Assembly: GCA_021818505.1 (NCBI GenBank) | Contig: JAKADX010000015.1 | Span: 1-64,000, forward strand | Origin: Pseudomonadota bacterium | GTDB lineage: Bacteria; Pseudomonadota; Alphaproteobacteria; Acetobacterales; Acetobacteraceae | Reading direction: 5' to 3' | DNA length: 64,000 nucleotides | In this document: piece by piece, positions 22,296 through 34,100 of the stretch | How positions within the stretch are numbered: the stretch's first letter is position 1 | Layout: every line of letters begins with the position of its first letter | Program-made: the position numbers and the translations under genes | Notes under the pieces: model-generated | What the model was told of the DNA's origin: nothing | Databases searched by the model: none | Seen by the model: the letters and a program-made list of their open reading frames with translations, nothing else

Positions 22296-23427
22296 ATGTC
22301 CGCCGAATCCGACGCCCTTCATGAGCAGATCAGGCAGTCCGTGGCGCTGCTGAGGAGGCATCTTTGACTGGGATGCCGCCGTCGCCCGCCTGGATGAACT
22401 GAACGCGCGCGCCGAAGACCCGAACCTGTGGAACGATGCGACGCTCGCGCAGAGCGTCATGCGCGAGCGCAACCGGCTGGCCACCGCGATCGACGGCGTG
22501 CGCGCGCTGGAGCGTGAGGTTGCCGACGCGGTCGAGCTGATCGCGCTGGCCGAGGACGAGGGCGACGCGGCGATGGTGACCGATGGGGTCGCGACGCTGC
22601 GGCGGCTGGCCGAGGAGGCGAAGCGACGCGAGATCGAGAGCCTGCTGTCCGGCGAGGCCGACGGCAACGACTGCTACGTCGAGATCAACGCCGGCGCCGG
22701 CGGCACCGAGGCGCAGGACTGGGCCGAGATGCTGGCGCGCATGTACACGCGCTGGGCCGAGCAGCACGGTTACAAGGTGCAGTGGATCGAGGAGAGTGAG
22801 GGCGAGCAGGCCGGCATCAAGTCGGCGACCATCCAGGTGAGCGGGCCGAACGCCTATGGCTGGCTCAAGACCGAGGCGGGCGTGCACCGCCTCGTGCGCA
22901 TCAGCCCCTTCGACGCGGCGGCGCGGCGGCAGACCAGCTTCGCCAGCGTCTGGGTCTATCCGGTGGTGGATGACACGATCGACGTGCAGATCAACGAGAG
23001 CGACCTGAAGGTCGATACCTATCGCGCCTCCGGCGCCGGCGGGCAGCACGTCAACAAGACCGAGAGTGCCATCCGCATCACGCACATCCCGACCGGCATC
23101 GTCGTCGCCTGCCAGACCGACCGCAGCCAGCACCGCAATCGCGCGACCGCGATGGCGATGCTGAAGGCGCGGCTCTATGAGGCGGAGTTGCAGAAGCGCG
23201 AGGCGGCGGCGACGGCGCAGGAGAACGCCAAGACCGATATCGGCTGGGGCCACCAGATCCGCAGCTACGTGCTGGCGCCTTATCAGTTGGTGAAGGATCT
23301 GCGGACGGGCGTCGAGAGGGGCAACCCGGCGGCGGTGCTGGACGGCGATCTGGATGCGTTCATGGCGGCGGCGCTGGCCGCGCGTGTCGGCGCCACGCGC
23401 AGCGAGGCGAGCGCACAGGCGCAGTAA
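22296..23427 (+). CDS. prfB: Peptide chain release factor 2 with programmed +1 frameshift
   Basis: RF2 terminates translation at UGA and UAA. Reading starts at ATG 22296 and meets an in-frame TGA at 22365-22367 after 23 codons; a +1 shift there (CTT TGA C read as L then GAC) joins the frame that runs to TAA at 23425, giving about 376 residues. The shift site has the classical parts: AGGAGG, a three-base spacer, then CTTTGAC. The RF2 codon-recognition tripeptide SPF is in [18 protein letters not shown], and the peptidyl-hydrolysis motif GGQ falls at about 248-250 in [14 protein letters not shown]. Low RF2 slows termination at the UGA and favours the shift, giving autoregulation. Confidence 0.95.
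22353..22368 (+). other. prfB programmed frameshift signal
   Basis: The string AGGAGGCATCTTTGAC contains an internal Shine-Dalgarno-like AGGAGG, a CAT spacer codon, the slippery CTT codon, the TGA stop and a following C, matching the arrangement known from E. coli prfB. The downstream coding frame begins with GAC at 22366. Confidence 0.93.
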
Positions 23428-23549: not shown

Positions 23550-23577
23550 TGTGGGGTCGTGTTCGTGGGGTCGTGCC

Positions 23578-24249
23578 ATGAGGCGTGCCCTTTTGTTATC
23601 GATTATTTCAGTGTCGGTGGCTGCTCTGGCGTTGCCGTCGCTGGCTGATGCGGGCGGCGGTGGCATGTACGGGCACGGCGGCGGGTCACCCCACTGGGCG
23701 CCTGCCGCACACTGGGGCCGCCACTTCCAGCGGGGGGCGGGAATGCGGCGCCCCGGACAGGCCGGCAGTCTGCTTCGACGAAGCTTCGCGAACCGATTCG
23801 GTTTCGGGCCAGGCTATGGGCGGCCATACGGTCCGGTGAACTACGGGTCGATCTATGGCCCCCTTGGTTATGGTGCGGGCTTTGGGCCGCTGGGCTACGG
23901 ATATCCCTTTGGTCCCCTGGGCTACGGCACCGGCATCGGGCCGCTCGGTTATGGCGCGGCCCTTGGATCGCTGGCCTATGGCTGGCCCTATGGCCTGTTC
24001 GGATACGGGTGGCTCGGCAATGTGTGGCCCGACACGGGGTGGCCGGACAGCGGGTGGCAGACCACCGGCGTGCAGTATATCGCACCGCCGCCGCCCGAGA
24101 TGCCGCCGCCCCAGGTCATCGTGATCAGCGCGGATGCGCGCGGCCAGACACCTCCGCCCTCGGGGCCATTGCCGGACTATTCCTACGTTGCCGGCTGCCA
24201 CGCGATTCCGAACGGCTATCATTGCGCCACTGCCGCGGGCGCGAACTGA
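23578..24249 (+). CDS. Secreted protein with nine-residue Gly/Tyr tandem repeats
   Basis: A 223-residue predicted secreted protein. The signal peptide MRRALLLSIISVSVAALALPSLADA is followed by a Gly/His/Arg-rich segment, then six tandem copies of a nine-residue unit of the type xFGPLGYGx (residues 92-145), then a Trp/Pro-rich region, PPPPEMPPPQVIVISADARG, and a tail with two cysteines (YSYVAGCHAIPNGYHCATA). No known domain is recognised. The ATG at 23578 is preferred over the in-frame GTG at 23551 because the basic n-region starts there. Low-complexity repeats suggest a surface or matrix role, but this is speculative. Confidence 0.75.
   Translation: MRRALLLSIISVSVAALALPSLADAGGGGMYGHGGGSPHWAPAAHWGRHFQRGAGMRRPGQAGSLLRRSFANRFGFGPGYGRPYGPVNYGSIYGPLGYGAGFGPLGYGYPFGPLGYGTGIGPLGYGAALGSLAYGWPYGLFGYGWLGNVWPDTGWPDSGWQTTGVQYIAPPPPEMPPPQVIVISADARGQTPPPSGPLPDYSYVAGCHAIPNGYHCATAAGAN
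23851..24012 (+). repeat. Six tandem 27-base coding repeats
   Basis: Six consecutive 27-base units encode variants of GFGPLGYGA; the first four keep GPLGYG exactly, while the last two drift (GSLAYG, GLFGYG). Third codon positions vary between copies, so the repeat appears maintained at the protein level and is not a recent DNA duplication. Confidence 0.85.
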
Positions 24250-24273
24250 TCGCGCATCGCCGGCAAGCGCGGT

Positions 24274-24465
24274 TTATTGCACAGGCGGCTCGGCTGACTC
24301 GGTGGGCGGCGCGGCCGGCGCAGCCTGGGCCTTTTCAGTGCGCTTGCGCAGTTCCGTCAGGAAATTGTCGTAATAGACGAGATATTCATCCGTCTTGGCG
24401 ACGCTGCGCTTGTTCACCAGAGCGGCGGCGAAGATGGCCGCCACGATCTTGTCGGTCTCGAACAT
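24274..24465 (-). CDS. Small protein of unknown function
   Basis: A 63-residue protein: MFETDKIVAAIFAAALVNKRSVAKTDEYLVYYDNFLTEL, then a basic patch and an Ala/Pro/Glu-rich tail. The N-terminal 45 residues look like two helices; the first is hydrophobic and might touch a membrane. The start is supported by CGGAGGA seven bases upstream of the ATG. It stands alone, convergent with the repeat protein gene and divergent from the ThDP-enzyme operon. I recognise no family with certainty. Confidence 0.65.
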   Translation of the reverse strand: MFETDKIVAAIFAAALVNKRSVAKTDEYLVYYDNFLTELRKRTEKAQAAPAAPPTESAEPPVQ

Positions 24466-24633
24466 GCCGTTTCCTCCGATTCGGGACGCCCGAGGATACA
24501 CAAAACGGTGCGCCGTGGAGATCGTTTCGGACTGCTGCGCCATCGCCCGCGGGATTGGACCATGTTGCATCCGATTTCATGCCGCCGGATCATGCGCCGG
24601 ACGGGCGGCGCGACAGGCACGGAGAGGACGGCA

Positions 24634-26424
24634 ATGGCGCGGATGAAGGGCGGAGAACTGATCGGAGAGTTCCTGCATAGGGAGGGGATCGAGCACGTCT
24701 TCGGCATCTGCGGCCACGGCAATGTCGGAATGCTCGACGTGCTGTACGGGATGCGCGACCGCATCACCCTGGTCTCGCCGCGCCATGAGCAGACGGCCGG
24801 GCACATGGCCGATGCCTATTTCCGGGTGAAGCACCGTCCGGCGGCGACTCTCACGTCCTGCGGGCCGGGCTCGGCCAATCTGGTGATGGCGCTGGCCAAT
24901 GCCTATGCCGATTCCTCGGCCGTGCTGGCGCTGACCGCCAACGTGCCTACGCAGCAGTTCAACCGCGGCCCGTTCCAGGAGCTGTACCGGCAGAAGGAAG
25001 CCGATTTTCCCTCCGTCCTGCGCCCGGTGGTCAAACGCAGCTTCCAGCCGACCCGGGTGGAGATGCTGCCCTCCGCGCTGCGGCTCGCCGCCGACACCAT
25101 GCTGGGCGGGCGGCCGGGGCCGGTGCAGGTCGATATCCCGTTCAACCTGTTCCAGGAGGACGGCGATCTGGCGGTTGAGGCCAGCAGCGCCGGCCGCACC
25201 GCGCGCCGTGGCGGCGCCGCGCCCGAGGACGTGGCCGAGGCAGCGACGCGCCTGCTCGCCGCCCGCCGCCCGGTACTGTTTGTCGGCCACGGCGTGACGC
25301 TCGCCGAGGCCGGGGCGGAACTGGTGGCGCTGGCGGAGCGGCTGTGCATTCCGGTGATCGCCTCGCCGAATGGCATGGGCTGCATGCCGATGAGCCATGC
25401 GCTCTCGCTCGGGTTCATCGGCCGCAACGGTGTCTATGCCGCCAACCAGGCCGGCCGCCACGCGGACCTCGTGCTCGCCATCGGCGCGCGCTTCGACGAC
25501 CGCTCCGCCTCTTCCTGGATCGAAGGCTATTCTTGGAATTTTCCCGACTGCGCGCTGGTGCAGGTGGACGTGGACGTGACCGAGATCGGCCGCAACTATG
25601 CCGTCGATCTCGGCATCGTCGCCGATGCGCGGGTCTTCGTGCGGCAGTTGCTGGGCGAGATCGACGCGCGCGGCGCGGCCGCGCCGGAGCGGCGTGAATG
25701 GCTGGCGATGATCGAAGCCTGGCGGGCGGAGTGGGACGCGTTCGTGCGACCCAACTTCGCGATCGACACCACACCGCTGCGGCCGGAACCGATCGTGGCC
25801 GCGGTGCGGCGCGTGCTGCCGGACGATGCAATCATCTCGCTCGACTCCGGCGTGCACCACAACTGGTTCATGCAGTTCTGGGAGGCGCGGCGGCCGCAGA
25901 CCATGCTGAATGCCTGGGGGTTTTCCGCCATGGGGTTCGGCGTCAGCGGCATTCTCGGCGCCAAGTTGGCAGCCCCCGACCGTGTTTGCGTCTCGATCTG
26001 CGGCGACGGCGGATTTACCATGACGCCGCACGTACTCTGCACCGCCGTCGAATACGACATCCCCTGCATCTGGCTGATCTGGAACAATTTCGCCTGGGGC
26101 GCCATCCGCGACATCCAGTACGGTCTGTTCGCGGGCCGTGAGCACGGCACCGCCTTCTACAGCGGCGAGAACCGCGCACCGTACAACCCGGATTTCGCGG
26201 CGCTCGCGCGGGCGCACGGCGTGGCCGGCGTCACCGTGACGCATATTGCCGACCTTGCCCCGGCGCTGGAGGCGGCGATCGCCGCAAACAAGCCGTGCGT
26301 GCTGGACGTGCATGTCGATGCCAATGTCCGCCCGCCCGCGACCGGCACGTGGGCGCTGCCGCCGATCCCGCACAAGGAGCCGGTGTTCGGCCGCCGCCTC
26401 ACCGCCGCGGAGCGTGTCGCCTGA
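24634..26424 (+). CDS. Thiamine-diphosphate-dependent enzyme (acetolactate synthase-like)
   Basis: A 596-residue three-domain ThDP enzyme. The N-terminal PYR domain has GGELIGEFLHREGIEHVFGICG and the cofactor-activating Glu region (SPRHEQTAGHMADAYFR); a central domain (about 205-340) follows; the PP domain has GDGGFTMTPHVLCTAVEYD with Asn downstream in WLIWNNFAWG (GDG at about 457). The family includes acetolactate synthase, glyoxylate carboligase, oxalyl-CoA decarboxylase and benzoylformate decarboxylase; no specific match is evident. The ATG follows GGAGAGG. It leads a four-gene operon with a cupin, a flavoprotein and a TIM-barrel enzyme, so it is probably not the biosynthetic IlvB; no small subunit gene is present. 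Confidence 0.88.
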   Translation: MARMKGGELIGEFLHREGIEHVFGICGHGNVGMLDVLYGMRDRITLVSPRHEQTAGHMADAYFRVKHRPAATLTSCGPGSANLVMALANAYADSSAVLALTANVPTQQFNRGPFQELYRQKEADFPSVLRPVVKRSFQPTRVEMLPSALRLAADTMLGGRPGPVQVDIPFNLFQEDGDLAVEASSAGRTARRGGAAPEDVAEAATRLLAARRPVLFVGHGVTLAEAGAELVALAERLCIPVIASPNGMGCMPMSHALSLGFIGRNGVYAANQAGRHADLVLAIGARFDDRSASSWIEGYSWNFPDCALVQVDVDVTEIGRNYAVDLGIVADARVFVRQLLGEIDARGAAAPERREWLAMIEAWRAEWDAFVRPNFAIDTTPLRPEPIVAAVRRVLPDDAIISLDSGVHHNWFMQFWEARRPQTMLNAWGFSAMGFGVSGILGAKLAAPDRVCVSICGDGGFTMTPHVLCTAVEYDIPCIWLIWNNFAWGAIRDIQYGLFAGREHGTAFYSGENRAPYNPDFAALARAHGVAGVTVTHIADLAPALEAAIAANKPCVLDVHVDANVRPPATGTWALPPIPHKEPVFGRRLTAAERVA

Positions 26425-26446
26425 CGCCGGCAGGGAGGGTTTCGTC

Positions 26447-26812
26447 ATGTTCGAAAAGAACGGCGCCAGCATTCGCAACATCGCCGAGGTGATGTGGGAG
26501 ACGCCGCCCGCGCATTACGACGCGCACAGCAAGATGCTGGTCACACCGGCGACCAGCGCCAGCCGGCGCTTCGACCACCGCATCTCCTCCTATCAGCCCA
26601 AGGGCTATGTCGCCCCGCACAGACACAAGGTGCAGGAGCAGATCTATCACGTGCTCGATGGCGAGGGGCTGATGGAGATCGACGGGGAGCGCGTCGTGGT
26701 GCGTCGCCACGACTGCATCTTCCTGCCGCCCGGCGTTGAGCACGCGATCTACAACACCGGCTTGCAGGATCTGGTGTTCCTGGTCATCACCACGCCGCCC
26801 ACGGATGAGTGA
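26447..26812 (+). CDS. Single-domain cupin protein
   Basis: A 121-residue cupin. Both metal-binding motifs are present: PHRHKVQEQIYHVLDGEG (motif 1 His-x-His and Glu) and PPGVEHAIYNTG (motif 2 His). Such proteins are small metal-dependent isomerases, dioxygenases or sugar-binding regulators. It begins 22 bases after the ThDP gene with GGGAGGG upstream, and its end overlaps the flavoprotein gene by eight bases, so it is part of the operon and may handle an intermediate of that pathway. Confidence 0.88.
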   Translation: MFEKNGASIRNIAEVMWETPPAHYDAHSKMLVTPATSASRRFDHRISSYQPKGYVAPHRHKVQEQIYHVLDGEGLMEIDGERVVVRRHDCIFLPPGVEHAIYNTGLQDLVFLVITTPPTDE

Positions 26813-28508
26813 CGACGCCGGCGCCTGCGACGTCGTCGTGATCGGCGCGGGCGCGGGCGGCATGACCGCGGCGGCGGTCGCGGCGGCCGAGGGACAGCGC
26901 GTGCTGCTGATTGAAAAGACCGGGCAGGTCGGCGGCACCACCGCGTGGTCCGGCGGCATGGTATGGATTCCCGCCAACAGCAGGATGGCGTCGGTCGGCC
27001 TGCACGACAGCCCGCAGGCGGCACGTGCCTATCTCGCCGCCACCGTGCCGGAGGCAGAAGGCGCCGCGCTGCGCGAGACCTTCCTGGCGCGCGGCGAGGA
27101 AGCCATCGCGTATCTGGAAGCGCGCACCGCGCTGCGGCTGCAACCGGTGCGTGCCTATCCCGACTATTACTCCGACCGGCCGGGTGCCACGCCGGGCGGA
27201 CGGGCGCTGGAGCCATGCGCCTTTGACGGACGGTTGCTCGGCGCGGACTTTGCCCGGCTGCGTGCGCCGCTGCCGGAATTCACGCTGTTTGGCGGCATGA
27301 TGGTGAACCGGGCCGACATCCCGCACCTGCGCCGCATGTTCCGCTCAGGCCGCTCCGCCGCCGTGGCGGCGCGGCTGCTGGCACGGCACGCGACGGAACG
27401 GGTGCGCGCGCCGCGCGGCACCACGCTGCACCTGGGCAACGCGCTCGCGGCGCGGCTCTATCGCTCGGTGCTCGACCTGGGCGTGACGGTGATGTTCGAC
27501 GCCGCGGTGACGGCACTTGCGACCGAGCGTGGCCGCGTTCTCGGTGCCACGATCCGAACGGGGAACGGCCTGCGGCACGTGACCGCGCGCCGCGGTGTGG
27601 TGCTGGCGACCGGTGGATTCTCGCATGACGCGGCGCTGCGGCAGGCGTATTTCCCCTCCGCCGCTGGCGCGATTTCGGCCGCCGCGCCGGGCAGCGCGGG
27701 CGACGGCGTGCGCCTCGGTCTCGCCGCTGGGGGATCGTTGGGGACCGGGTTGGCGAGCACGGCGTTCTGGGTGCCTGCCTCGGTGTTCCGCCGCGACGAC
27801 GGCAGCGTCGGCGTGTATCCGCACACCGTCACCGACCGAGCCAAGCCCGGCGTGATCGCGGTGAACGGAGGTGGCCGGCGCTTCGTCAACGAGGCGCTGT
27901 CGTACCACGAACTCGTGCTGGCGATGCTGCGCGACGGCAGCGCCGCCACGTCGTGCCACCTGATCTGCGACCGTGAGTTCCTCTGGCGCTATGGGCTGGG
28001 GCGCGTGCGCCCGTTCACGCTGCGGCTGCGCCCGTATCTCGCGACAGGCTATCTGACCCGGGCGGCGAGCATCGCGGCGCTGGCGACGGCGCTGCGCCTC
28101 GATCCCGCCTCGTTGGTGCGGACCGTTGCGACATACAATGCCGGAGCGCGCGCGGGGCAAGACCCGGAATTCGGGCGTGGCGGCACGCTGTATGAGCGGC
28201 ACATGGGCGATCCCGCGCACTGGCCCAATCCCTGCGTGGCGCCGATCCTGCGCGCGCCGTTCTACGCGCTCGCGCTGCATCCGGCAGATCTCGGCACCGC
28301 TGCCGGCCTGGTCACGAACGCGCAGGCGCAGGTGGTGCGGGCGGACGGGGCGCCGATTCCCGGGCTCTATGCCTGCGGAAACGATATGAACGCCATCATG
28401 AACGGACACTATCCCGGGCCCGGAATCACGCTCGGTCCAGCCCTGATCTTCGGCTACATTGCCGGCCGGCACCTCGCCGGACAGCCGGCAGCGGAGGCGG
28501 GACGATGA
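26805..28508 (+). CDS. FAD-dependent oxidoreductase (KstD/fumarate reductase flavoprotein family)
   Basis: A 567-residue FAD_binding_2 protein. The dinucleotide fold DVVVIGAGAGGMTAAAVAAAEGQRVLLIEK starts at residue 9 and continues into GGTTAWSGGMVWIP, typical of the 3-ketosteroid dehydrogenase group; the C-terminus has GLYACGNDMNAIMNGHYPGPGITLGPALIFGYIAGRHLA cut by family-typical glycines. These enzymes introduce or reduce carbon-carbon double bonds next to a carbonyl. No steroid genes lie nearby, so a steroid role is not supported. It overlaps the cupin and the TIM-barrel genes, indicating translational coupling. Confidence 0.88.
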   Translation: MSDDAGACDVVVIGAGAGGMTAAAVAAAEGQRVLLIEKTGQVGGTTAWSGGMVWIPANSRMASVGLHDSPQAARAYLAATVPEAEGAALRETFLARGEEAIAYLEARTALRLQPVRAYPDYYSDRPGATPGGRALEPCAFDGRLLGADFARLRAPLPEFTLFGGMMVNRADIPHLRRMFRSGRSAAVAARLLARHATERVRAPRGTTLHLGNALAARLYRSVLDLGVTVMFDAAVTALATERGRVLGATIRTGNGLRHVTARRGVVLATGGFSHDAALRQAYFPSAAGAISAAAPGSAGDGVRLGLAAGGSLGTGLASTAFWVPASVFRRDDGSVGVYPHTVTDRAKPGVIAVNGGGRRFVNEALSYHELVLAMLRDGSAATSCHLICDREFLWRYGLGRVRPFTLRLRPYLATGYLTRAASIAALATALRLDPASLVRTVATYNAGARAGQDPEFGRGGTLYERHMGDPAHWPNPCVAPILRAPFYALALHPADLGTAAGLVTNAQAQVVRADGAPIPGLYACGNDMNAIMNGHYPGPGITLGPALIFGYIAGRHLAGQPAAEAGR

Positions 28509-29323
28509 ACGACGTGGCGGCGCGGTTCGGCGTCAACACCTACGCCTATATCTACGAAAGCTCGGCCGCCGACTGCATGCGCCGGTTCGCTGAGCAGGGC
28601 TACGGCGCGACGGAACTGATGCTCTCGCCCGGGCATCTCTGGCCTTCCGAACTCGACGCGGCGGCGCGGCGGGAGCTGCGCGGGCTCGGCGAGACGCGGC
28701 TGCCCATCGCCACGCTGAACATGCCCAGCCTGGACATCAACATCGCGTCGAGCGCGGAGGAGGTGCGGGCCTATTCGCTTGCGCTGCTGACCGATTGCGT
28801 GCGCTGCGCGGGCGATGTCGGCGCCGGCGGCGTGGTCATCGGTCCGGGCAAGGCCAGCGCGCTGCGGCCGATGTCACGCGCACAGATGGTCGGCCATTTC
28901 CATCGCGCGCTGGACACGCTGGCGCCGGTCGCCCGCGCCGTCGGGACGCGGCTGCTGATCGAAAATGTCCCGTTCGCGTTCCTGCCAGCGGCCGACGAAC
29001 TGATGGCGGCAATCGACGCGCACGGCGATCCCGACATCCGCGCGATCTACGACTTCGCCAATGCGCATTTCATCGGCGAGGACCTGGCCGCCGGGCTGCG
29101 GCGGGTGCAGGCGCGACTCAGCTTAGTGCACGTGTCGGACACGACCCGCGCCGCCTATCGCCATGACCCGCTCGGGCAGGGCGATCTCGTCCTTGCCGGA
29201 TTGCCCGAGGTACTGGCGGAGGTGGGTTATCGTGAGCCGATCATGCTGGAGGTGATCTCCGCGACACCCGACGCCGACATCGCCGACAGCGCGCGGCGGA
29301 TGGCCGCAGCCGGGTTCGCCTGA
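28505..29323 (+). CDS. Xylose isomerase-like TIM-barrel protein (sugar phosphate isomerase/epimerase family)
   Basis: A 272-residue AP_endonuc_2/xylose-isomerase-like TIM barrel. Metal-site segments are visible: LLIENVPFAFLP (Glu), AIYDFANAHFIGEDL (Asp and His), SLVHVSDTTRAAYRHDPLGQGDL (His and Asp) and IMLEVIS (Glu). Members isomerise or epimerise sugars or act on sugar-like acids. It closes the operon, starting inside the flavoprotein stop (ATGA). A convergent hairpin follows directly. Confidence 0.86.
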   Translation: MNDVAARFGVNTYAYIYESSAADCMRRFAEQGYGATELMLSPGHLWPSELDAAARRELRGLGETRLPIATLNMPSLDINIASSAEEVRAYSLALLTDCVRCAGDVGAGGVVIGPGKASALRPMSRAQMVGHFHRALDTLAPVARAVGTRLLIENVPFAFLPAADELMAAIDAHGDPDIRAIYDFANAHFIGEDLAAGLRRVQARLSLVHVSDTTRAAYRHDPLGQGDLVLAGLPEVLAEVGYREPIMLEVISATPDADIADSARRMAAAGFA

Positions 29324-29340
29324 AGTCCGGCCGGTGGCCG

Positions 29341-29359
29341 GGCGGCACGCTATGCCGCC
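29341..29359. terminator. Convergent terminator hairpin
   Basis: GGCGGCA and TGCCGCC form perfect seven-base arms around CGCTA between the TIM-barrel gene and the yhaN-like gene, whose stop codon lies in the loop and arm. It probably serves both directions; there is no T-tract. Confidence 0.55.
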
Positions 29360-32300
29360 GTGACCGTCGTGCCGGCGGGCAGGCGCAGCACCGGCGCGAT
29401 GCCGTCTTCCTCGGCCATGGCGGCGATGTGGGCGTGGTGGGTGAACAGGATGGTCTGCGTGTGCGGTCCGCCTGCCGCCAGTACGCGCAGCGCCGCGCGC
29501 GCCCGGCGGTCGTCGAAATTGACCAGAAGGTCGTCGGCGATCAGCGGCAATGACTCGCCCGTACCGGCCTCGCCCGCGATTGCTGCGAGCCGCAGCGCCA
29601 GATAGAGCTGGTCGCGCGTGCCGTCGCTCAGTCGCTCCACCGCGCAGGAGCCGCCGTCGCCGCGCACCGCTGTGACCAGCGGGTCGCCTTTGTCGTCGGC
29701 ATCGACATCGAGCCGAACATAGCGGCCCTCGGTGAGGTCCGCGAACAGCGCGCCGGCGCGCGCCAGCAGCGGCCCTTGCGAGCGGCGGCGGAACCGCTCG
29801 ATACCGGCGTTGAGCAGCGTCTGCGCCAGCCGCACGCGAACATAGCGCGCCGCCGCTTCCTCGGCCTGTGCCAGCGCGTCGCGCATCGCCTGGGCTGCCT
29901 CGGGTGCGTCGTGGCCGCGCTCCATCGCGGCAAGCTCGGCGCGCAGGACAGCGAGCCGTCCGCTGCGCACATCCGACTCGGTCGCCATGTCGGCGAGCCG
30001 CCGGTCGATCTCGGCGATGCGCGGACGCAGCGAGTCGGGGTCGATGTCCGCGGCCTCCGCGTCGAGTTCGGCACGCGACTTTCCCTCACCGAGCCGGTGC
30101 AGTTCGGTTTCGCGCTCGCGGATGCGCTGCGCGAGCGCGGCATGCGCGGCGGCGCGTCGGATGGCCTCCTGCAACGCGGCATCATCGGCGGCGCCGGCGA
30201 GGCGGCGAAGGGCGGCGAGAGTTGACTCCGCCACATCGTGCTGATGTTCCAGCGCGGCGACGCGGGCCGCAGATTTCTGCGCAAACGCGTCGAGTTCGCG
30301 CCGTCGCGCGTCGGCCTTGCGCGCCGCGTCCAGCCGGGCAGCGAGGCTGCGCACCGCCTCGTGCGGCCCGGCCGGGTCGAGGTCGGGGGCGACGCGGGCC
30401 ACCAAGGCCGTCACCGCTTCCGCATCGGCGCGCACGGCCAGCGTCATCTGCTCGATGCGGTTGCGCGCGGCGCGCCACTGATCGGCCAGCCGGTCGATTT
30501 CCGCCCAGAGTTGCAGCGCCAGCTTGGCGCTTTCGACCGGCGCGTCGGGCCGGAGCGCCAGCGGTGCTGTCGCCGCGCGCCACGTCTCCCACCACGCGGT
30601 CAGCGCCGCCTCGACTTTCTGCGTCTGGATACGCTGCTTTGCTGCCTCGGCCTCCGCCGTGGCGAGTTCCTTTTGCGCAGCCGTCCAGGCTGCATAGGCC
30701 GTTTCGCGCGCCGCGCAGACCCGTTCGGCAGAGTCGAGCAGCGCGGCCAGTCGGCCGCCGTGCGGGGCGGCTTCCTCCGGCAGCAGTGCGGCCAGCGCGG
30801 CCGAGACGCTCGCGTGGCGGGCGGCCAGCGCGCCGCAACGCCGCTGCGCTTCCTGCACCGCGAGCCGCTTCGACAGCACTTCCTCCCGCCGGCGCAGCCA
30901 GTCGCGCATCGAGTCCGGGTCGGACGCAATCACGCCCGCCGGGCGCCACAGGGCCGCCCAGTCCGCCCGTGCCGCGTCGCGCGCCGCCACGGCCGCCTGC
31001 TCCGCCACCGCGTCGTGGGTCCGCAGCACCCGCTCCTGCGCGTCGCGGGCGCGCGCTTTGTCATAGGCGACCACCCGCGCAAGGTCGCCCGCACGGTGGT
31101 CGGCGAGCGCGTCGGCGGCGTGGAGCAGCGCCTCGAACGTCGCCGGCAGCGCGCTCGCTTCGCCCAGATCAGCCAGTTCCTCCGGCGAGGGAGCCGCGCC
31201 GCCTTCGATGTGCCGGCGGCGCAACAGCCGCCAGGCGCGGTCGCGCCGGTCACGTGCCGCGCTGATCGCCGCCTCGGTCGGCACCTCGCCGGTGGCGAGA
31301 TAACCCTGCAATTCCGCCGCGATCTCGACCAGGGCTTCGTCGCGGCGGGCGATCGCGTCGCGGGCGACTCGCAGTGCGGCCTCGGCGGCGCGCAGCCGGT
31401 CGGCGGCGGCCGCAAGATCGGAGTCGAGGGGAACGGGGGCGGCGGCGAGCGCGTCGGCGGTGCTGTCCCAGAGCGGCAGCGCGGCCAGCGCAGTCGCCAG
31501 CGCCGCACTCGCCGCCGCCAGCACCCGCGCTGCCTCGTCCCGCTCGGCATCCAGCCGGCCTTCGGCGCGGGCGGCCGTGATCGCCGCACGCAGCTCGGCG
31601 AAGGGCGGCGGTTCGGGCAGCGTGGCCACCCGCGCCGCCGCCGCAACCACCGCGCGGGCGGCGTCATCGGCAGCCGCCTCGGCGTCCTGGCGGCGCGTGG
31701 CAAGCCGGTCGTAGGCACTCGCAGCGCGTGCCACCGCGTCACGGGCCAGCGCATCGGGGATCCGGGCGACCAGGGCGTGCGGGTCGTCGGCCCGGCCGAG
31801 CCGCTGTGCCGCGTCCTGCAATGCCCGAGCGGCCTGCGCCTCGGCAACGCGCTGCGGTTCGCGCTCGCGCTCGGCGGCCTGGACGCGGCTGCGGTCGGCA
31901 GCAAGCGCGTCGATCGCCGCGCCCTCCGCCAGCAGCGCCGCGTCGATCACCAGCGCGTCGCGTTCGGTGCGCAGCGCTGCGGCCTCCAGGCGTTCGCGCT
32001 CAAGGTCGTGCGCGGCGCGCTCGCTCGCAGTGCGGGCGTCGCGCCATTGTGCTTCGGCGTCCGGCGGCAGCGACGGCACGTCGCCGAGAGCGGCAAGCTC
32101 CGGCAGGTCGCGCGCCAACGCCGCGCGCGCGGGGGCGGTGGCCTCGATGCGGGCGAGGCGGGCGCGCTCGGCGTGCAGCGCGCGCGCTTCGCCGGCGGCG
32201 GCATCGCGGTCGGCGACCAGCCGCTCCGCCTCGTCCCGCGCGCGCGCGAACGCCGCCGGCGGCACGATCCGCGCCTCCACCCGCTCGCGCTCCGTCTTGA

Positions 32301-32862
32301 AAGTGTCCACCGCGACGTGGAAGACGCGGCGTCCGTGCCGCGTGCCGAACAGCCGTCCGGCCTCCTCGCCCAGGCGGTCGGCCAGCGCGCGCAGGCCGGT
32401 CAGGCCGGTACGCGCCTGCAGAATGCTCTCGCTCAGGTCGCCGCGCCCTTGCAGGATCGCCTGCCCGCCCGCGCGCAGTGCCGCGCCGTCGAGGCCGAAC
32501 ACCCGCCCGAACCGCTCGCGCGTCACGCCGCCGAGCAGGGCGGCCAGCGCGCTTTCCGCCATCGGCCGGCCGTCAGCGTCGAGCAGGTCGTTCTGGTTGC
32601 GCTTGATGCGGACGAACAGCCGCTCGCGCCCGTCCTCGCCGCGCAGGCCGATCGTCACGCGCAGGTCGCGGGTGGCGTGCACGAAGGCGTAGGGCGTGAC
32701 GTGCGGGAAGCCGAACAGGGCGTCGCCGACGGCAGCCAGCGTGGTCGATTTGCCCGCCTCGTTCGGCCCCAGCACGACATGCAGGCCGGAGTCAGGCGGG
32801 AAGGCGAGCGCGAGGTCGCTCAGATGCCCGTAACGGTCCAGGACGAGGCGGGTGATCCTCAT
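29350..32862 (-). CDS. YhaN-like SMC/SbcC-type ATPase
   Basis: A 1170-residue protein with SMC-like layout: the N-terminal ATPase half MRITRLVLDRYGHLSDLALAF and Walker A GPNEAGKSTTLAAVGDALFG (about 32-51), a very long Ala/Arg/Glu-rich coiled coil (about 170-1000), and the C-terminal half with signature-like RLSDGTRDQLYLALRLAAIAG, Walker B LPLIADDLLVNFDD and the H-loop ILFTHH. It resembles Bacillus YhaN, which pairs with YhaO in DNA end processing, more than SbcC (shorter hook region, no obvious CxxC). It overlaps the nuclease-like gene by four bases, fixing the start at 32862. Confidence 0.88.
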   Translation of the reverse strand: MRITRLVLDRYGHLSDLALAFPPDSGLHVVLGPNEAGKSTTLAAVGDALFGFPHVTPYAFVHATRDLRVTIGLRGEDGRERLFVRIKRNQNDLLDADGRPMAESALAALLGGVTRERFGRVFGLDGAALRAGGQAILQGRGDLSESILQARTGLTGLRALADRLGEEAGRLFGTRHGRRVFHVAVDTFKTERERVEARIVPPAAFARARDEAERLVADRDAAAGEARALHAERARLARIEATAPARAALARDLPELAALGDVPSLPPDAEAQWRDARTASERAAHDLERERLEAAALRTERDALVIDAALLAEGAAIDALAADRSRVQAAEREREPQRVAEAQAARALQDAAQRLGRADDPHALVARIPDALARDAVARAASAYDRLATRRQDAEAAADDAARAVVAAAARVATLPEPPPFAELRAAITAARAEGRLDAERDEAARVLAAASAALATALAALPLWDSTADALAAAPVPLDSDLAAAADRLRAAEAALRVARDAIARRDEALVEIAAELQGYLATGEVPTEAAISAARDRRDRAWRLLRRRHIEGGAAPSPEELADLGEASALPATFEALLHAADALADHRAGDLARVVAYDKARARDAQERVLRTHDAVAEQAAVAARDAARADWAALWRPAGVIASDPDSMRDWLRRREEVLSKRLAVQEAQRRCGALAARHASVSAALAALLPEEAAPHGGRLAALLDSAERVCAARETAYAAWTAAQKELATAEAEAAKQRIQTQKVEAALTAWWETWRAATAPLALRPDAPVESAKLALQLWAEIDRLADQWRAARNRIEQMTLAVRADAEAVTALVARVAPDLDPAGPHEAVRSLAARLDAARKADARRRELDAFAQKSAARVAALEHQHDVAESTLAALRRLAGAADDAALQEAIRRAAAHAALAQRIRERETELHRLGEGKSRAELDAEAADIDPDSLRPRIAEIDRRLADMATESDVRSGRLAVLRAELAAMERGHDAPEAAQAMRDALAQAEEAAARYVRVRLAQTLLNAGIERFRRRSQGPLLARAGALFADLTEGRYVRLDVDADDKGDPLVTAVRGDGGSCAVERLSDGTRDQLYLALRLAAIAGEAGTGESLPLIADDLLVNFDDRRARAALRVLAAGGPHTQTILFTHHAHIAAMAEEDGIAPVLRLPAGTTVTAA

Positions 32863-34100
32863 GCGCCGCCCGCCAACATCCGGGCCACCATCTGCCATGC
32901 GTCCGGCGCGAGCGCACGCAGCGCCTCCGCCGTCTGGGGCAGGTCGGGCGGCGGCTGGTTCGCCAGGCGAGGCATTTGTGCAGCGAGGTTGCGGAAATCG
33001 GCGAGCAGCCGTTCCGTGGCGTCGGGATCGTCGAGCGCCGCGGCGAAGGCGGCCGCAAGCTCCGCCATGCCGTCGCCACCCTCGGGCGCCACGGCCGGCG
33101 GCGCGGTGGCGAGGCGGACCCGCTCGATATGCAGATCGCCGCTGATCGCGGCGGCGGCTGCGCGGCACTCGGCGTCCAGCGCCTCCTCATCGCCGAGCAG
33201 CGCGCCGTGCAGGGGCGTCGCACCCCGGAGCACCACGCGCGCGATCAGCGGCCGGCCCTCGGCGCCCGCCTCGGCGTCGGCCAGCGCGAAACGGATGCGT
33301 GCCGCCAGTTCCGCGCGCGTCTGCGCGCCGGCGGCGTCCACCGGCACATGCGCCCAGCGCAGCACGTCGGTCGCGTGGGCGGTCAGGCCGACGACGCGGC
33401 CGTCTTCGACCTCGACCAGCGTGCAGCCCTTGGCGCCGGTTTCGCGGATGCTGCGGCCCTGAATGTTGCCGGGAAACACGACGTAGGGCTGTTCGTGCAG
33501 CACGCGGCGGTCGTGGATGTGGCCGAGCGCCCAGTAGTCGTAGCCGCGCGCGGCCAGCCCGGCGGCGGTGCAGGGCGCGTAGGTGGCGTGCGGGCCGGGA
33601 TCGTCTGCGGAGGTGTGCAGCACGCCGATATTCAGCCGGCCAGGCAGCGGATGCGGGTAGTCGCGCGACAAGTCCTCCGGCACGGCGCGATGGGGAAACG
33701 AGCGGCCATGCACCGCGACCCCGATCGCCTCAAGCCCGTGGAACGTCTCGGCACGGTGCGAGGAGAACTCATGGACGTTGGCCGGCAGCGTGAGCTGACG
33801 CGTGATATGGGAAGCGGCGTCGTGGTTGCCGCGCACGATCAGGCAGGGTCGTGCGAGGCGGCGCATCTCCTGCGCGAAGTGCAGGCCGGTGCTGAAATCC
33901 TTCCAGTCGTCGTCATAGAGGTCACCGGCAATGACGACGAAGGCCACGTCCTCGCGGATCGCGAGGTCGATGAGGTTGGCGAAGGCGCGGCGGGTGCAGT
34001 CGCGGGTGAGGTGCATCGGCACGCGGTCGCGCCGCGCCAGCCCCGCGAGCGGGCTGTCGAGATGAATGTCGGCGGCGTGCAGGAAACGGAACGATGTCAT
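32859..34100 (-). CDS. YhaO-like metallophosphoesterase (SbcD/Mre11-type nuclease)
   Basis: A 413-residue calcineurin-like phosphoesterase. All metal motifs are present: FLHAADIHLDSPL (Asp, His), VIAGDLYDDDW (Asp), LIVRGNHDAAS (Asn-His-Asp) and YWALGHIHDRR (His). It resembles Mre11/SbcD-type DNA exonucleases, and with the adjacent SMC-like ATPase it should form a two-subunit DNA-end-processing complex. The ATG at 34100 directly precedes TSFRFLHAADIHLDSP; it starts one base after the nagA stop, implying cotranscription with the amino-sugar genes. Confidence 0.9.
   Translation of the reverse strand: MTSFRFLHAADIHLDSPLAGLARRDRVPMHLTRDCTRRAFANLIDLAIREDVAFVVIAGDLYDDDWKDFSTGLHFAQEMRRLARPCLIVRGNHDAASHITRQLTLPANVHEFSSHRAETFHGLEAIGVAVHGRSFPHRAVPEDLSRDYPHPLPGRLNIGVLHTSADDPGPHATYAPCTAAGLAARGYDYWALGHIHDRRVLHEQPYVVFPGNIQGRSIRETGAKGCTLVEVEDGRVVGLTAHATDVLRWAHVPVDAAGAQTRAELAARIRFALADAEAGAEGRPLIARVVLRGATPLHGALLGDEEALDAECRAAAAAISGDLHIERVRLATAPPAVAPEGGDGMAELAAAFAAALDDPDATERLLADFRNLAAQMPRLANQPPPDLPQTAEALRALAPDAWQMVARMLAGGA

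Follow-up and report, generated by a model that had tools for sequence, protein, structure and literature searches.

Which pathway could be served by a thiamine diphosphate (ThDP) enzyme, a small cupin, a flavoprotein and an isomerase-like barrel whose genes follow one another on a single strand? We considered this question for a locus in a 64,000-nucleotide stretch of an Acetobacteraceae genome (contig JAKADX010000015.1, positions 1 to 64,000; hereafter, the window). We tentatively read the operon as one local version of a catabolic set, widespread in proteobacteria, that would act on a small cyclic polyol or ketone, probably a carboxylated one. The best, still cautious, reading of its chemistry is a non-phosphorylating, inositol-like route in which a ring would be desaturated and then opened by ThDP-dependent C-C cleavage.

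The open reading frame (ORF) coordinates and Pfam families confirm the arrangement described in an earlier, sequence-only reading of the window, with all four ORFs on the plus strand and spacings of 22 bases (ThDP-cupin), -8 bases (cupin-flavoenzyme) and -4 bases (flavoenzyme-barrel):

24634..26424, plus strand: ThDP-dependent enzyme, 596 amino acids (aa); Pfam TPP_enzyme_N, TPP_enzyme_M and TPP_enzyme_C above gathering scores
26447..26812, plus strand: small single-domain cupin, 121 aa; Pfam Cupin_2, 62.5 against a gathering score of 27.2
26805..28508, plus strand: flavin adenine dinucleotide (FAD)-dependent enzyme of the 3-ketosteroid dehydrogenase kind, 567 aa; Pfam FAD_binding_2, 301.6 against 20.4
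28505..29323, plus strand: AP_endonuc_2 (xylose-isomerase-like) TIM barrel, 272 aa; Pfam PF01261, 108.8 against 31.1

The earlier reading knew of no named pathway with these families, and we likewise found no description of a pathway fitting the gene set in open-licence PubMed Central (PMC) full text. We file the set as an undescribed variant of ring-opening catabolism resembling that of IolD and cyclohexane-1,2-dione hydrolase (CDH). One candidate that we rejected, riboflavin/lumichrome catabolism, combines a thiamin-dependent decarboxylase with a cupin, but in the accessible portion of PMC12746152 these are accompanied by a P450, a xanthine oxidase and dioxygenases instead of the window's set.

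Active-site residues of the ThDP enzyme and the flavoenzyme

By its motifs, the central ThDP enzyme carries the predicted active-site signature of ring-opening enzymes. A GHGNV loop occupies residues 27-31 (24712-24726), and the catalytic glutamate lies within HEQ at residue 52. The strict pattern GHG[NT]VG is kept in 79 of 87 family ORFs; among the remaining eight, five have GHGNI in its place, one is fragmentary, and the sequences of two (in loci L113 and L107) are printed too short to judge. All seven IolD proteins compared, from the window's genome and its relatives, have the GHGNV loop; the five other, non-IolD ThDP paralogues of the window's genome lack it. In a survey of 30 ThDP N-domains from eight genomes (loci were at hand for 30 of 54 places, and two of the 24 missing ones are, to go by coordinates, IolD places), GHGNV is found in the window's protein only, with one other domain (L178) reading GHSNL. 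Position 28 steers the reaction type in ThDP enzymes; CDH (PDB 2pgn) has His28 at the loop position, and the deposited variant 4d5g has Ala.

Resemblance to IolD extends to a G[FY]SxMG segment in the ThDP protein and to the presence of a TIM barrel and a cupin within one operon, the inositol route IolG/E/D/B having IolE and IolB in these roles. The window's operon differs from that route in having a flavin enzyme and no kinase among its four genes, and the window's genome holds its own, separate IolD. CDH agrees with the window's protein in having His28 and the catalytic glutamate at matching places, but its loop reads GHTSH rather than GHGNV (in a side-by-side comparison of CDH residues 1-173). 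The 50 structural matches listed for the ThDP model do not include CDH, which does not by itself exclude that family.

The flavoenzyme supplies a second set of diagnostic residues. In an alignment with 7p18 and 4c3x (the latter's chain numbering being offset by 20, by our own count), its Y121, Y367, Y536 and G540 correspond to Y119, Y318, Y487 and G491 of the 3-ketosteroid delta1-dehydrogenase KstD1. According to PMC5348764, Tyr119, Tyr318, Tyr487 and Gly491 act in keto-enol tautomerisation and C2 proton capture, and FAD takes the C1 hydride. Because these catalytic residues are kept, the window's enzyme appears equipped to desaturate a ketone, and we infer that this ketone would be a ring. 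A near full-length match to 7p18 (E 2.2e-95) adds to the likeness to KstD, but no steroid-specific gene is present among the four, and of the 25 NCBIfam models listed (of 58) the enzyme reaches the cut-off of none. PRK12843 gives 702.8 bits against a cut-off of 758; PRK12844, the best of the models named for 3-ketosteroid dehydrogenase, gives 462.7 against 789, and ChcC2 428.8 against 900. The earlier guess of a cyclitol-like substrate is strengthened by these residues, as it is by the GHGNV loop that the ThDP protein has in common with IolD.

Cupin and TIM barrel

Read from its sequence, the cupin has a complete metal set, H58, H60, E64 and H99 (and N103), which we take to be a 3-His/1-Glu motif. 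In the TIM barrel, E153, D183, H209 and E249, presumably its metal site, are invariant in both alignments. In a structural comparison of the barrel's model (predicted local distance difference test score, pLDDT, 94.7), ketose 3-epimerase-like barrels come first, with others tied: the fold agrees with 3wqo at Z 29.6 (root-mean-square deviation, rmsd, 2.1; 254 aligned residues) and with UlaE at Z 29.0, but identity to such barrels is 17-22% (22% for the 3wqo match), and the best NCBIfam model gives 40.1 bits against a cut-off of 305. The sugar-like isomerase proposed in the earlier reading has support as far as the fold. 3-Dehydroshikimate dehydratase, tried as an identity for the barrel, does not appear in the family and structure matches that were listed, and is not thereby excluded.

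Recurrence of the gene set

Relatives of the ThDP protein were collected from plasmids and from genome contigs. A tblastn search of plasmids returned 47 records, of which the six at 60-80% identity were read (the other 41 fall below 60%). An 11-row alignment, run against genome contigs, found 284 stretches encoding a ThDP relative at E<=1e-3; the best 80 of these, at 65-84% identity, were taken, making 86 named loci in all. Matches were counted at 40% identity or more over half of the query for the cupin, the FAD enzyme and aldehyde dehydrogenase (ALDH), and at any match with E<=1e-10 for the TIM barrel. The recurrence counts given here are from tblastn and are lower bounds, because 26 loci are shorter than 15 kb; cluster memberships are from ORFs called by a simple script, so that neighbour cluster counts are rough.

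The cupin recurs in 65 of the 86 loci (in 62 at 50% identity or more), the KstD-like FAD enzyme in 36, ALDH in 32 and the TIM barrel in just 19. Where ThDP enzyme and cupin are both present, their genes lie on one strand and at most 200 bases apart in 45 of 65 loci. All four families are found together in eight loci (L040, L041, L042, L044, L106, L108, L115 and L130). The exact order of the four genes is seen in the window only, being absent from the 86 named loci and from 25 further ones, none of which (0/25) has a TIM match. A one-strand run ThDP-cupin-FAD is present in L072 and L074, and also in L046, L048 and L053, although L046 and L048 merely represent L072 and L074 again, from a second collection; in L076 the FAD gene of this run is on the opposite strand, and L080, L083 and L085 have the order FAD-cupin-ThDP.

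The stable core is the ThDP enzyme with the cupin, the FAD enzyme is a frequent companion, and the four genes form a real unit in part. The co-occurrence elsewhere on which the sequence-only reading had staked its proposal is real in the 86 loci, and because the families recur together in other genomes, the four genes very likely share one pathway, as that reading held. A fixed four-gene unit is not supported, given how seldom the TIM barrel recurs and that many relatives have an ALDH, a short-chain dehydrogenase/reductase (SDR) and a transporter that are missing from the window's operon.

It is highly improbable that the four genes are mere neighbours, a ThDP-cupin pair beside which unrelated FAD and TIM genes came to lie by chance or horizontal transfer. 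A DNA search of four same-genus genomes did not find the operon (part of the FAD gene is matched, at 69%, in G200 only), and the TIM gene is unlinked in most relatives, as such an origin would have it; the gene overlaps of -8 and -4 and the recurrence of the FAD enzyme, the barrel and the full set at the frequencies above argue for the opposite, as does the finding that 30 query families, including transporters and IclR, match nothing else in the 64-kb window.

Among 200 genomes of the window's own family, its ThDP subtype occurs in nine (its own genome and eight others, at 76-84% identity) and more distant ones (mostly 49-53%) in 17. A second subtype, about 50% identical, is encoded at 6547-8349 of L045 and at loci among L054-L070, with GHGNV in the three that were checked; a cupin 83-85% identical to the window's is encoded close to it in L056, L058 and L062.

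Genes added in related loci

Relatives extend the core with ALDH, NAD(P) oxidoreductases, Liv or Tct transporters, TcuA/TcuB, dehydroquinase paralogues or genes of the 4-oxalomesaconate pathway. Five alphaproteobacterial loci (L102, L115, L117, L123 and L127) have a self-contained operon, FAD-ThDP-cupin-(IclR)-LysR-LivK-LivH-LivGM-ALDH-SDR, and Antarctobacter and Ponticoccus plasmids have in common a set of NAD(P) oxidoreductases, a class II dehydroquinase, Gfo/Idh, a TIM barrel and the FAD enzyme. TcuA is matched at 40% identity or more in 14 of the 86 loci and TcuB in 13, and one cluster representative of each passes its NCBIfam cut-off (710 against 369 bits and 382.4 against 246.6 bits, respectively). 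Loci L131, L143 and L147 hold genes for acyl-coenzyme A (CoA) ligase, enoyl-CoA hydratase, 3-hydroxyacyl-CoA dehydrogenase or CoA-transferase, labelled from Pfam for some members and from cluster membership for the rest.

L073, whose ThDP protein is 84% identical to the window's, has genes for a 4-oxalomesaconate tautomerase (527.8 bits against a cut-off of 440) and for a LigB-type dioxygenase next to that of the ThDP enzyme, and L121 holds a 4-oxalomesaconate tautomerase and a PIG-L protein. LigK-like matches occur in L043, L073 and L121, and amidohydrolases in L073 and L121 score 228 and 221 bits against the nearest model's cut-off of 500. Class II dehydroquinase is matched in six of the 86 loci: L040 (14803-15270), L044, L098, L100, L108 and L130. 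The paralogues in ThDP clusters score 112-136 bits, below most other copies in the same genomes, and the four dehydroquinase loci that lie within whole genomes are accompanied by one to four further copies per genome. To judge by these gene families, the common theme of the related loci is carboxylated rings and tricarboxylates.

Some further observations concern the same loci. L040 (an Antarctobacter plasmid) and L044 (a Ponticoccus conjugative plasmid) carry almost the same catabolic set in different roseobacters, and the ThDP gene of the latter is annotated as two overlapping pieces. A further, distant ThDP protein lies beside TctA-/PrpF-like genes at 4131-5804 of L102 and 4193-5872 of L112, in the same loci as a family member. 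On a plasmid of Chelatococcus sp. CO-6 (L213), a flavoenzyme gene with a 64.7% DNA match to the window's is found with SDRs and tripartite ATP-independent periplasmic (TRAP) transporters, near homogentisate genes; no ThDP gene is annotated in that stretch.

A possible ring-opening route

In the non-phosphorylating route that we cautiously prefer, a dehydrogenase (present in relatives, and here perhaps encoded elsewhere in the genome) would produce a ring ketone, which the TIM barrel would epimerise or from which it would remove water beside the ketone. The KstD-like flavoenzyme would then take two hydrogens alpha,beta to the ketone, and the tautomeric 1,2-dione (or acyloin) would undergo ThDP attack and hydrolytic C-C cleavage, comparable with the reactions of IolD and CDH. 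The metal cupin, often encoded beside the ThDP enzyme, may isomerise or cleave the open-chain oxo-acid; IolB holds the corresponding place in inositol breakdown. The ALDH and the Liv or Tct transporters encoded in relatives speak for such a route. In relatives, ALDH may oxidise the aldehyde, and the resulting acid could pass to TcuAB, beta-oxidation or the 4-oxalomesaconate enzymes.

A more specific form of this scheme, which we regard as very unlikely, is a non-aromatising route for hydroaromatic (quinate-/shikimate-like) acids in many proteobacteria. Dehydration and flavin desaturation would lead to a carboxylated 1,2-dione, and IolD-like opening by the ThDP enzyme would yield a C7 tricarboxylate, for example a homocitrate-type acid, bound for TcuAB, beta-oxidation or the 4-oxalomesaconate enzymes. 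The class II dehydroquinase paralogues of the six loci are the sole direct hint at this substrate class.

The wider interest of the locus lies in a ThDP protein that has many relatives (the 284 stretches above), occurs on plasmids as well and is paired with a flavoenzyme equipped for ketone desaturation. If ring opening is correct, it would add a non-aromatising, non-phosphorylating way of consuming cyclic carboxylic acids, and would assign a function to proteins at present labelled acetolactate synthase, 'thiamine pyrophosphate-binding protein' or 'FAD-binding protein'.

Evidence against ring opening, and other possible reactions of the ThDP enzyme

Several results weigh against the ring-opening route. 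At the level of the locus, these are the scarcity of the TIM barrel among relatives and the lack of transporter, IclR or other query-family matches elsewhere in the window. At the level of the ThDP enzyme, MAFFT sets the IolD loop in register in one alignment, in which two IolD rows were wrong-strand ORFs and left uncounted, and two columns off in two others; the loop match accordingly depends on the motif being identical. The NCBIfam model for acetohydroxyacid synthase (AHAS), TIGR00118, gives 398 bits (cut-off 538.35) and that for IolD, TIGR04377, 265.1 (cut-off 715), and the best structural matches of the ThDP model (pLDDT 79.3) are AHAS proteins, at Z 43.5 and rmsd 3.1 over 549 residues. 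The sister group is unsettled, since the approximately unbiased test gives p-AU 0.054 when the family is constrained with AHAS alone, 0.312 with AHAS and rows resembling glyoxylate carboligase (Gcl), and 0.26 with the own_L038 group. A tree built without the loop columns, which speaks for the route, grouped the family weakly with IolD (75/88); a quick 59-row tree joined the two at an SH-aLRT support of 95, with a long-branch warning.

In NCBIfam score as in fold, no large family comes closer than AHAS, but membership in it was rejected: the score is below cut-off, GHGNV replaces GGAVL, and no small regulatory subunit gene is present among the four, in agreement with the earlier remark that an IlvN-type subunit is missing. 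Glyoxylate carboligase was likewise rejected, the window's protein having Glu in HEQ where L187 and L189, rows that we take to be Gcl-like, read RHV; a clade of the family with the Gcl-like rows gives p-AU 0.0231.

We consider it unlikely that the ThDP enzyme is an acyloin/benzoin-type lyase or carboligase acting on an open-chain or aryl alpha-hydroxyketone and feeding ALDH. The ThDP fold and catalytic Glu suit such a reaction as well as ring opening, many solved relatives are ligases or lyases, and the best solved relative by sequence, ahead of AHAS, is BbmA, titled 'ThDP-dependent HKA synthase'. BbmA, however, is without the GHGNV loop, and the KstD residues of the neighbouring flavoenzyme point to a ring or similar ketone.

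Somewhat unlikely, too, is that the enzyme decarboxylates a 2-oxo tri- or dicarboxylate such as 4-oxalomesaconate or its reduced form, with ALDH oxidising the aldehyde to aconitate or tricarballylate for TcuAB and the tricarboxylic acid (TCA) cycle. The TcuA and TcuB genes in related loci speak for it, as do the dioxygenase, the tautomerase and the LigK-like match beside the ThDP gene in L073. Within the window's family, moreover, TcuB is present in 18 of 26 ThDP-positive genomes and in 61 of 174 others (p 0.001, uncontrolled for genome size and kinship). This association stems from the second ThDP subtype (14 of 17 genomes against 65 of 183), whereas the window's subtype is associated neither with TcuB (4 of 9 against 75 of 191, p 0.51) nor with 4-oxalomesaconate tautomerase (3 of 9 against 81 of 191, p 0.81), two null results that weigh against the ring-opening route as well. 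Nor does decarboxylation account for the KstD-like enzyme or the GHGNV loop.

The window's genome itself offers neither an ALDH orthologue (the best match by score is 36%), a further difficulty for both pathways, nor a 4-oxalomesaconate tautomerase match at E<=1e-60, although TcuB and TcuA are present away from the operon. On these grounds, the last steps of the ring-opening route would probably differ here from those in relatives.

Boundaries of the operon and neighbouring genes

Beyond the operon, one convergent gene was noted:

29350-33168, minus strand: ORF with an AAA_27 domain, ending 26 bases past the TIM gene

A terminal hairpin was claimed between the two in the earlier reading. Folding of the strand between 29318 and 29370 gives -25 kcal/mol, which is no better than chance (equalled by 49 of 200 shuffles, z -0.58), and a scan of 24250-29600 yielded no terminator and no sigma-70-like promoter. 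The prfB side of the insertion site is matched in all four sibling genomes; two of these have the right flank on a different contig. A conserved insertion site was set aside, as the right flank is not among the listed matches in the remaining two siblings and no empty site is demonstrable.

Upstream, a Gly/Tyr-rich ORF at 23551-24249 repeats PLGYG-like units and has no Pfam match. It is preceded by prfB (22296-23427), in which ATG 22296 is in frame to TGA 22365 and the long ORF, as listed from 22459, sits in the +1 frame. With AGGAGG at 22353-22358 and CTTTGAC at 22362-22368, which we take to be the frameshift motifs, prfB appears to use a programmed +1 frameshift.

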